From positions 1-34,507 of the forward strand of contig JAHKLT010000001.1 in the NCBI GenBank assembly GCA_020854915.1: a DNA stretch of 34,507 nucleotides, written 5' to 3'. How positions within the stretch are numbered: the first letter of the stretch is position 1; every line of letters begins with the position of its first letter. The notes beneath the pieces are model-generated. The model saw only the letters and a program-made list of their open reading frames with translations, was not told where the DNA came from and made no database searches. Position numbers and translations under genes: made by a program. Shown here piece after piece: positions 1 to 14,998 of the stretch. Source of the DNA: Methanobacteriaceae archaeon. GTDB taxonomy: Archaea; Methanobacteriota; Methanobacteria; Methanobacteriales; Methanobacteriaceae.

Positions 1-379
1 TTTAATTACACTGAAATTAAATTAATTTTTCTTATATTAAAAAATAAAAATACATTCAACAATAAACCAAATATTAGGTAATATACGAACAAAATAAACA
101 AAATAAATAATTATCCATCAGCAGGATTTTAGACAGTGCCTATGTAACAAATAATATTTAAATTTTGCTTTTTAAAATCCTTATTTTTTTTATACACCTC
201 AAAAAAACATTTTATTCTAAAAATTAGACTGTTAATAAGGGCACTGTCTAAAATCCTGCCGATGGATAATTAATTATTTTGTTTATCTTGTTCGTATATT
301 ACCTAACATTTGGTTTATTATTGAATGTATTTTTATTTTTTAATATAAGAAAAATTAATTTAATTTCAGTGTAATTAAA
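1..379. repeat. Long fold-back inverted repeat, 140-nt arms around a 99-nt spacer
   Basis: Bases 1-140 and 240-379 are reverse complements of each other without a gap; position i pairs with 380-i. Comparing by eye gives 5 mismatches in 140. The spacer is 141-239. The inner ends both read GGCACTGTCTAAAATCCTGC pointing away from the spacer, and the outer ends read TTTAATTACACTG. The left arm may continue past the window edge. No ORF lies inside. The GGCACTGT start resembles the terminal repeats of IS6-like elements, so the arms may be two inverted ends of one IS or a MITE; that family link is only an inference. Confidence 0.9.
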
Positions 380-641
380 GCATATTGCTGGTTAAATTAA
401 ATTATACTATTTTTTGTATGTGTTTTATTTAACATGAGCATTATCCTGTTTTAATCGATTGTTAATTTAAAACAATATAATATAAGTATTAACATATTTA
501 TAAAAGTTATACAGGACAGTAGTTTTTTATAATTTGGATATAGTTAAAATTAGTATTGTAGATTTTGTAAAATAGTGTGGAGTTTTTTCTTCACATAATT
601 TTTTTTATGGATTTTGGTTTTTTTATTAATCGTTGATACTG

Positions 642-840
642 TCAAAAATTGGTCAGGTAATTTTCATCTAATTCTTTTATTGATTTTTCTGTTATGTATT
701 CCATTTTGAGGTTTAAGAAATCTAATAATCCACTTGATGTTTTATATTTTTTCTTTATATAGTCAGGATTTGTTTGTTTGAAATATGTTTCTATTTTATT
801 ATTTGTATGTTATTGTAATGATCAAAATAATGTTGTATTA
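642..840 (-). pseudogene. Decayed transposase C-terminus (copy A)
   Basis: The minus strand from about 809 down to a TGA at 644-642 reads as a protein tail that begins HTNNKIETYF and continues KKKYKTSSGLLDFLNLKM. Just upstream, at about 840-810, a second frame reads HYFDHYNN and runs into the same stretch, so a frameshift near 810 separates them. No start codon or catalytic region remains. The tail is alike in pattern (KKKYKT, then G, then L and KM) to the plus-strand remnant at 881-1047. Transposase identity is inferred from this paired repeat context and from the general look of such IS tails in methanogens; I cannot name the IS family with certainty (an ISM1-like element is possible). Confidence 0.5.
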
Positions 841-880
841 TATTAAGAACATACATACATAAAAAAATAATTCCAGACTT

Positions 881-12313: not shown

Positions 12314-12862
12314 ATGATAATAGTTGCAATAACTGGAGCAAGTGGTGTAATTTATAGTATTAGATTATTAGAAGTATTAAATGAATTGAAGATAGAAAAT
12401 AGCTTGATTATTAGTGATGCTGCTAGAACAGTTATTGAAAGTGAAACAGATTTTAAAATTGAAGATATTATTAATTTAACAGATAATTACTATGATTTTC
12501 ATGATTTAAGTTCTTCTGTAAATAGTGGATCTTTTAAATTTGAATCATTAGTAATTGTCCCATGTTCAATGAAAACATTGTCATCAATTGCTAATGCATA
12601 TGGTTCAAATACTATAACTCGAGTAGCAGATGTTGCTTTAAAAGAAAAAAGAAAGGTTGTTTTAGTTCCTCGTGAGACACCTCTTAGAAGTGGTCATATT
12701 GAGAATATGTTAAAAGTTTCAAAAGAAGGAGGAATAATTTTACCAGCTATGCCTGGATTTTACCAGAAACCTAAGTCATTAAATGATCAAATTGATTTTA
12801 TTGTTGGAAAAATATTAGATTCATTAAATATTGAAAATAACTTATATAAAAGATGGAAATGA
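12314..12862 (+). CDS. ubiX: Flavin prenyltransferase UbiX
   Basis: A 182-residue flavoprotein that joins dimethylallyl phosphate to FMN to make prenylated FMN, the cofactor of UbiD-type decarboxylases. Signatures are VAITGASGVIYSIRLLEVL at the N-terminus, VIVPCSMKTLSSIANAYG, VLVPRETPLRSGHIENML and PAMPGFYQKPKSL. No ubiD is in the window. An AGTGAT ribosome site precedes ATG. The last codons (LYKRWK and stop) lie in the first copy of a 40-bp tandem duplication that also contains the start of cbiT. Confidence 0.94.
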   Translation: MIIVAITGASGVIYSIRLLEVLNELKIENSLIISDAARTVIESETDFKIEDIINLTDNYYDFHDLSSSVNSGSFKFESLVIVPCSMKTLSSIANAYGSNTITRVADVALKEKRKVVLVPRETPLRSGHIENMLKVSKEGGIILPAMPGFYQKPKSLNDQIDFIVGKILDSLNIENNLYKRWK

Positions 12863-12920
12863 TTTTATGATAGAAGATAACTTATATAAAAGATGGAAAT
12901 GATTTTATGATAGAAGATAA
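12837..12920. repeat. 40-bp perfect tandem duplication at the ubiX/cbiT junction
   Basis: Bases 12841-12880 are repeated exactly at 12881-12920, and four more bases match on the left. Each copy contains the ubiX tail (encoding LYKRWK and a stop) and the cbiT start with MIED. In the first copy the ATG at 12867 reads MIEDNLYKRWK then stop; only the second ATG (12907) leads into cbiT. Confidence 0.97.
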
Positions 12921-13479: not shown

Positions 13480-14089
13480 TAATTTTAAATCATGTATACT
13501 ATTATGTGGGGGAATGAGTAGAAGAATGGGTAAAGACAAGGGGTCTTTAATAATAAATGGAAAACCCATGATTTTACATATACTTGATACATTAAACTGT
13601 GAAATTGATGAGTTGATAATTGTATTAAATGATAAAGAAAGAATTATAGAATATGAAAAATTCATTGATAAAAAATCTTATTCTTACTCTATAAAAATCA
13701 TAGAAGATGAGATAAAAAATAAAGGCCCAATATCTGGAATAATGACAGGTCTTAAAAAAATTAATACAAATTATGCATTAATTTTACCATGTGATAGTCC
13801 AAATATAAGTAAAAACTTTATTAATCTGATTTTTAAAAAATTAAAAAATTTTAATAAAGATGGATTAATATTATACCATCTTGATGAAAAAATTGAACCA
13901 TTACATTCTGTTTATTCAAAAAATACCTATAAAATAATTGAAAAACTAATTAAAAACAATAAATTAGATGTTAAAAGTTTAATAAATGAATTAAACTGTG
14001 AATTTATTAAAATAGATAATAAAAATATCAAAAAAAGAGATACTGAAAATATTAATACAAAAAAAGATATAGAAAACTTATTTTATTAA
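13472..14089 (+). CDS. mobA: Molybdenum cofactor guanylyltransferase MobA
   Basis: A 205-residue nucleotidyltransferase. The GTP-binding signature LCGGMSRRMGKDKG is at residues 11-24, followed by GPISGIMTGL and the metal-binding PCDSPN. It converts molybdopterin to the guanine dinucleotide form used by formylmethanofuran and formate dehydrogenases in methanogens. The C-terminal 60 residues are very rich in Asn, Lys and Ile. The stop codon lies inside the first unit of a 66-bp tandem repeat, and the gene converges on rrp42. Confidence 0.9.
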   Translation: MTNNFKSCILLCGGMSRRMGKDKGSLIINGKPMILHILDTLNCEIDELIIVLNDKERIIEYEKFIDKKSYSYSIKIIEDEIKNKGPISGIMTGLKKINTNYALILPCDSPNISKNFINLIFKKLKNFNKDGLILYHLDEKIEPLHSVYSKNTYKIIEKLIKNNKLDVKSLINELNCEFIKIDNKNIKKRDTENINTKKDIENLFY

Positions 14090-14227
14090 ATTTAATATTC
14101 TACTTTCAATAAAATTGATATAAAATCTTTAAATATAGAAAACTTATTTTATTAAATTTAATATTCTACTTTCAATAAAATTGATATAAAATCTTTAAAT
14201 ATAGAAAACTTATTTTATTAGATTTAA
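14067..14227. repeat. 66-bp tandem repeat (2.4 copies) between convergent mobA and rrp42
   Basis: Unit 1 (14067-14132) and unit 2 (14133-14198) are identical; a partial third copy runs 14199-14227 with one mismatch at 14221. The first copy carries the last codons and stop of mobA on the plus strand; the third carries the last codons and stop of rrp42 on the minus strand, so both gene ends use the same repeated stretch. Confidence 0.97.
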
Positions 14228-14998
14228 CAGTTCACTACTTTTTGATATAGCTATATTTACACAATCTAATATTTCCTTTTTATTTAAAGGACCCATACCA
14301 CCTTTCTGCATTGAACAAACTAAACCCTTTTCTGTAACACCAATATTTAATCTTCCATCAGAAACATCCTCTTCCATTAAACTAGGATCAATAACCATTT
14401 CAGAACCAATTTTTACAAAAGTAGACATAACAACTTTTTCATTTAATGGTAGATCAAATGTGTTTTCTTTATCAATTACCAATCCATCATCACCAATAGA
14501 TGCAGTAGGTAACTTAGTACTATTTAAAGCAGCAGTAACTGCAAGTTCGCATGCATCAAAAAGATTTCCACAGTTATCTAAAACATGTAAATCTATAAAA
14601 ATCATCCAAACATGATTACCTTCTTCAACACAAAGTTTTTCTAAATCAACCATCTTACTTTCTCTAATACCCCTATCAACAACACGAGCAAGTTCAATTG
14701 ATTCTTCATTTGGAGGTCCAACTTCAAAAGTGGGATCTGCAATAGGTACCATTTCACAATTAGTCATTAAAACTCCTAAATTAGGATTATCTGGATATGG
14801 AGCTCCAACTTGAAGTTTAATACCTGCAATGACTTTTGTTCCACCAATTTTAACTTTTGCAGAACCTTCAGCTTTTGAAATAATATCTGTTTCAATAGAA
14901 ATATCTCTATATTGATCAATAGTCCTACCATCTTCTCTTTGATTATTACCAATAAGATCCTTAATACTTTCCTTAGTAATTTCAGGGATAATCTTCAT
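14210..14998 (-). CDS. rrp42: Exosome complex subunit Rrp42
   Basis: An RNase PH-fold protein of about 262 residues, the non-catalytic partner of Rrp41 in the hexameric ring of the archaeal exosome that degrades and tails RNA from the 3' end. The N-terminal REDGRTIDQYRDI signature and the central region DLHVLDNCGNLFDACELA fit Rrp42. The start is set at ATG 14998 because GGAATGAT precedes it; a TTG at 15019 would overlap rrp41. Its 3' end lies in the third, partial copy of the 66-bp repeat. The genes for L37Ae and RpoP that often follow in archaea are absent here. Confidence 0.95.
   Translation of the reverse strand: MKIIPEITKESIKDLIGNNQREDGRTIDQYRDISIETDIISKAEGSAKVKIGGTKVIAGIKLQVGAPYPDNPNLGVLMTNCEMVPIADPTFEVGPPNEESIELARVVDRGIRESKMVDLEKLCVEEGNHVWMIFIDLHVLDNCGNLFDACELAVTAALNSTKLPTASIGDDGLVIDKENTFDLPLNEKVVMSTFVKIGSEMVIDPSLMEEDVSDGRLNIGVTEKGLVCSMQKGGMGPLNKKEILDCVNIAISKSSELLNLIK

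Follow-up and report, generated by a model that had tools for sequence, protein, structure and literature searches.

The inverted repeat at the edge of the window (the whole 34,507-nucleotide stretch of DNA that was analysed) is very probably formed by two head-to-head copies of a single DDE-type insertion sequence (IS), their A ends facing each other across 99 bp. Copy 1 would have been inserted at TTACATA and been internally deleted, with contig C51 as its other flank, whilst copy 2 would be an older A-end remnant; the arm length of 140 nt would have been set by the assembly and the hairpin would be a by-product. Multicopy ends, both ends of the IS, a terminal repeat common to them, 7-bp duplications, a deletion junction and overlaps between contig ends were all observed directly. 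The hairpin in the window is an ordinary kind of element, namely head-to-head IS ends at a contig break.

Arms, termini and genomic copies of the insertion sequence

The arms, at positions 1 to 140 and 240 to 379, are complementary at 135 of 140 positions (96%) with no gaps and enclose a spacer of 99 nt (141 to 239), as stated in the original prediction of ungapped 140-nt arms with about five mismatches. The probability of such a match between unrelated sequences of the same composition is approximately 1e-54. The differences had been described as scattered; five point differences are indeed present, but all lie within 81 bases of the IS terminus (positions 21, 34, 48, 68 and 81) and occur in the second arm alone. 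The terminus GGCACTGTCT starts at 240 on the plus strand and at 140 on the minus strand. The placing of IS termini at the inner ends of the arms was correct, but their orientation had to be reversed, as both termini face the spacer and the IS bodies lie outward. The A-end terminus adjoining the spacer reads GGCACTGTCTAAAATCCTGC. The spacer is ordinary AT-rich host or older-element sequence, with no second copy in the genome, and is unique to contig C74, of which the window is the entirety (window position 1 being C74 position 1).

Both arms are A ends of the same multicopy IS. Copy 1 lies on the minus strand (1 to 140), its reading on that strand starting with GGCACTGTCTAAAATCCTGCTGATGG; its terminus is at 140 and the contig break cuts it at 1. 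Contigs C23, C52, C54 and C73 each terminate in this same end, with 100% identity over 137 to 140 bases. A second type of end, the B end, was found at C13, C47, C60 and the other end of C73, and has only the last 41 or so bases in common with the A end. This shared stretch is a terminal inverted repeat of approximately 41 bp finishing in GCAGGATTTTAGACAGTGCC; in copy 1 it occupies 100 to 140 (minus strand) and is 100% identical to the B-end terminus in all four of these places. In the B-end contigs the 41 bases are preceded by an open frame, PRSMKKTFRTTKGFLRRIKLQKLRWTKRNVLNIK*, which aligns to residues 434 to 467, the C-terminus, of a 474-aa transposase of Methanobrevibacter cuticularis. The IS thus has a non-coding A end upstream of its transposase and a B end encoding the transposase C-terminus; the full ORF is present in the M. 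cuticularis relative, the body being unassembled here. Copies occupy unrelated sites on C13, C23, C47, C51, C52, C54, C60, C73 and C74. A scan of viral contigs for the IS terminus gave no matches.

Target-site duplications were sought by pairing the flanks of A ends against those of B ends. Perfect 7-bp duplications were obtained for copy 1 of C74 with C51 (TTACATA), C54 with the end of C73 (ACAATAG), the start of C73 with C13 (TTAAAAT) and C52 with C47 (AAGTAAT). All remaining pairings matched at three bases or fewer, and the copy 1 flank matched B-end flanks other than that of C51 at no more than one base; the pairing yielded no partner for C23 or C60. Related elements in other genomes are likewise flanked by 7-bp duplications, TTTGCTC (L058), ATTTATG (L119) and TAATAAG (L117), giving a fixed length of 7 bp in four reconstructed copies and three related elements elsewhere. 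In the window the duplication is TATGTAA at 141 to 147 (TTACATA on the other strand), identical at seven of seven bases to the first flank bases past the IS end of C51. Since the target duplications match, 140/141 is a true insertion junction. Genome searches for the arm and GGCACTGTCTAAAATCCTGC, for flanking transposase sequence and for a target duplication were all positive, and the earlier suggestion of two inverted IS ends was borne out, arm and terminus recurring at contig ends together with transposase coding and target duplications. The pairings additionally provide the scaffolding adjacencies C74-C51, C54-C73-C13 and C52-C47.

Contig break, arm length and alternative readings

The genome to which C74 belongs (Methanobrevibacteraceae) is fragmented into 75 contigs totalling 1.66 Mb. 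Nine contig ends each overlap their nearest partner by 140 or 141 bases; where two flanks agree by chance for one to three bases, the IS part is in several cases shorter by a similar amount. Overlaps of this length point to de Bruijn assembly (k about 141) that stopped at a repeat, a reading taken from the overlaps themselves and not from assembly records. The contig would begin at position 1 because such an assembler was unable to traverse the multicopy IS, and both the outer limit of arm 1 and the arm length are consequently limits of assembly. The value of 140 nt, originally given as the arm length of the element, is a truncation at the first base of C74 and not a true arm length. No complete IS, body included, is present in the assembly of this genome. 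The absence of an IS body is usual for a collapsed repeat. Caution is warranted more generally: where a near-perfect inverted repeat of round length sits at the edge of a contig, it may consist of IS ends that the assembler truncated at its k-mer size.

Arm 1 is exactly a k-mer overlap at a contig end, where such errors arise, and the inverted repeat might be an assembly chimera in which arm 1 was wrongly attached to the contig. This is very improbable, however, as the 7-bp duplication adjoining arm 1 matches C51 exactly, as predicted for a real insertion, and the private substitutions in arm 2 show that it was not derived from those same reads. Although genuine, the inverted repeat is not a bounded fold-back element. 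If positions 1 to 379 were a fold-back MITE moving as a whole unit, which was among the original proposals, long and nearly perfect inverted arms enclosing a short spacer would be expected; this reading is extremely improbable given that the termini (140 and 240) and the target duplication are internal, on the spacer side at 140/141 and not at 1 or 379, that the outer boundaries consist of a contig break on one side and an undefined point on the other, and that the spacer is single-copy in the genome. The probability that the hairpin is a functional structured RNA, such as an antisense or attenuator element, is close to nil, although a structured RNA was likewise proposed originally: folded as RNA, the sequence is very stable (-184.4 kcal/mol against a shuffled mean of -47.0; z = -32), but two inverted copies of one IS end fully explain this stability, the contig end cuts arm 1 and an Rfam search of positions 1 to 1500 returned no matches. 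The potential hairpin is a by-product of two inverted IS ends and not a selected structure.

The two copies and neighbouring repeats

From the seven-base match and the absence of alternatives, C51 is inferred to lie on the far side of copy 1. The start of C51 carries transposase codons aligning to residues 95 to 141, followed directly by GATTTTAGACAGTGCC, which forms the final 16 bases of the terminus, such that the deletion junction reads SYDKKSEM before and ILDSA after the join. The residues D191, D250 and E426, conserved across the transposase family alignment, all fall past the deletion point, leaving the IS of C51 without any DDE residue. Copy 1 is therefore probably an internally deleted IS. 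It would have been inserted at TTACATA by transposition, generating the 7-bp target duplication, and its internal deletion would have fused codons up to approximately residue 141 to the final 16 bp of the right terminus, in which case it would depend upon a full copy for transposase. As the duplication is intact, copy 1 either moved already deleted or lost its body after insertion. It is conceivable, though unlikely, that this poorly catalogued, 7-bp-duplicating DDE group of Methanobrevibacteraceae has given rise to a lineage of non-autonomous, internally deleted derivatives that includes copy 1, and that derivatives ending in no more than the final 16 bp of the terminus may still be mobilised by full copies. 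Just past the copy 1 duplication, at 160 to 190 of C51 (L059), lies TGTATTGTCTAAAATAATTT, a decayed terminus-like sequence that suggests still older insertions at the same place.

Copy 2 (240 to 379, plus strand) is diverged. The ends of C23, C52, C54 and C73 agree with arm 1 at all five differing sites and arm 2 alone departs from them; recent duplication of the arms or correction between them, as first envisaged, is not supported, since only copy 2 has diverged. The last difference lies at window position 320, and an intact, otherwise unchanged IS would predict a contig break no more than about 141 bases further on, near 461, where none occurs. No transposase N-terminal coding was found behind copy 2 on the plus strand, nor was a second terminus or duplication (TAATAAG) found within 3 kb; the best match to the 40-bp terminus in 380 to 1400 was no better than in shuffled sequence (reached by 166 of 200 shuffles). 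Copy 2 is most likely an older A-end remnant that would have been truncated.

Further repeats were observed in the vicinity. A remnant of a second IS at 635 to 846 (minus strand) comprises a transposase C-terminus (TNNKIETYFKQTNPDYIKKKYKT...) whose stop falls within the terminal repeat (GATACTGTCAAAAATTGGTCAGG). It has copies in C22, C27, C50 and C63, of which those in C22 and C27 once more end at about 140 bases. A third repeat is present as pieces at 549 to 634 and 821 to 1119, with 565 to 605 and 1032 to 1072 inverted; in C8 and C36, copies of its first piece precede an ORF resembling the N-terminus of a 401-aa transposase (G021). As the second IS sits inside the third repeat, positions 1 to 1120 represent a nest of element remnants. 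Three relatives carry the ligase gene that neighbours the insertion site in the window. Short tandem or direct repeats, approximately 95 to 96% identical (109 and 51 bp), are present at 14067 to 14241 and 12830 to 12920. Imperfect direct repeats of about 80% identity within positions 1 to 780 of C23 (L008), a short contig, are probably those of a repetitive protein gene.

Relationship to known insertion sequences

The nearest relative is an IS of 1559 bp in M. cuticularis DSM 11139 (contig 64, NZ_LWMW01000064; L057:1069-2627), which encodes the 474-aa DDE transposase. It possesses the same 20-bp terminus and a single transposase ORF, starting 126 bp inside the A end, whose C-terminus is 53% identical to the B end of the window genome. 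It differs in that the subterminal sequence of the A end cannot be aligned past approximately 24 to 48 bp and in that the copy examined has no clear target duplication. Among 100 sampled genomes of the family of the window, recognised as Methanobrevibacteraceae from the named M. cuticularis records, 41 carry homologous transposases. A literature search on ISM1 and Methanobrevibacter IS found no paper.

Weak profile matches were obtained to models of IS66, ISH6, IS6 and ISL3, all under the NCBIfam cut-offs. In common with ISH6 and IS256 (Mutator-like) and with IS66, the transposases are of the DDE type with an N-terminal zinc-binding motif, but NCBIfam scores are far below the curated cut-offs. 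The best score to the ISH6 model NF041731 was 36.3 bits, in a close relative, against a cut-off of 240 bits, and for IS66 (NF033517) a score of 48.7 was obtained against 180. With Pfam DDE_Tnp_IS66 (cut-off 23.1 bits), one distant relative scored 33.5 bits and the nearest relative 18.4. For ISH6, duplication of an 8-base AT-rich motif, AANATNTT, has been described (PMC3942029), whereas the duplications reported here, although AT-rich, are of 7 bp. Judged by curated profile models, the IS would constitute an uncatalogued group of DDE insertion sequences of the Methanobrevibacteraceae, and a target duplication of 7 bp can now be given for this group, which is unnamed in current curated models.
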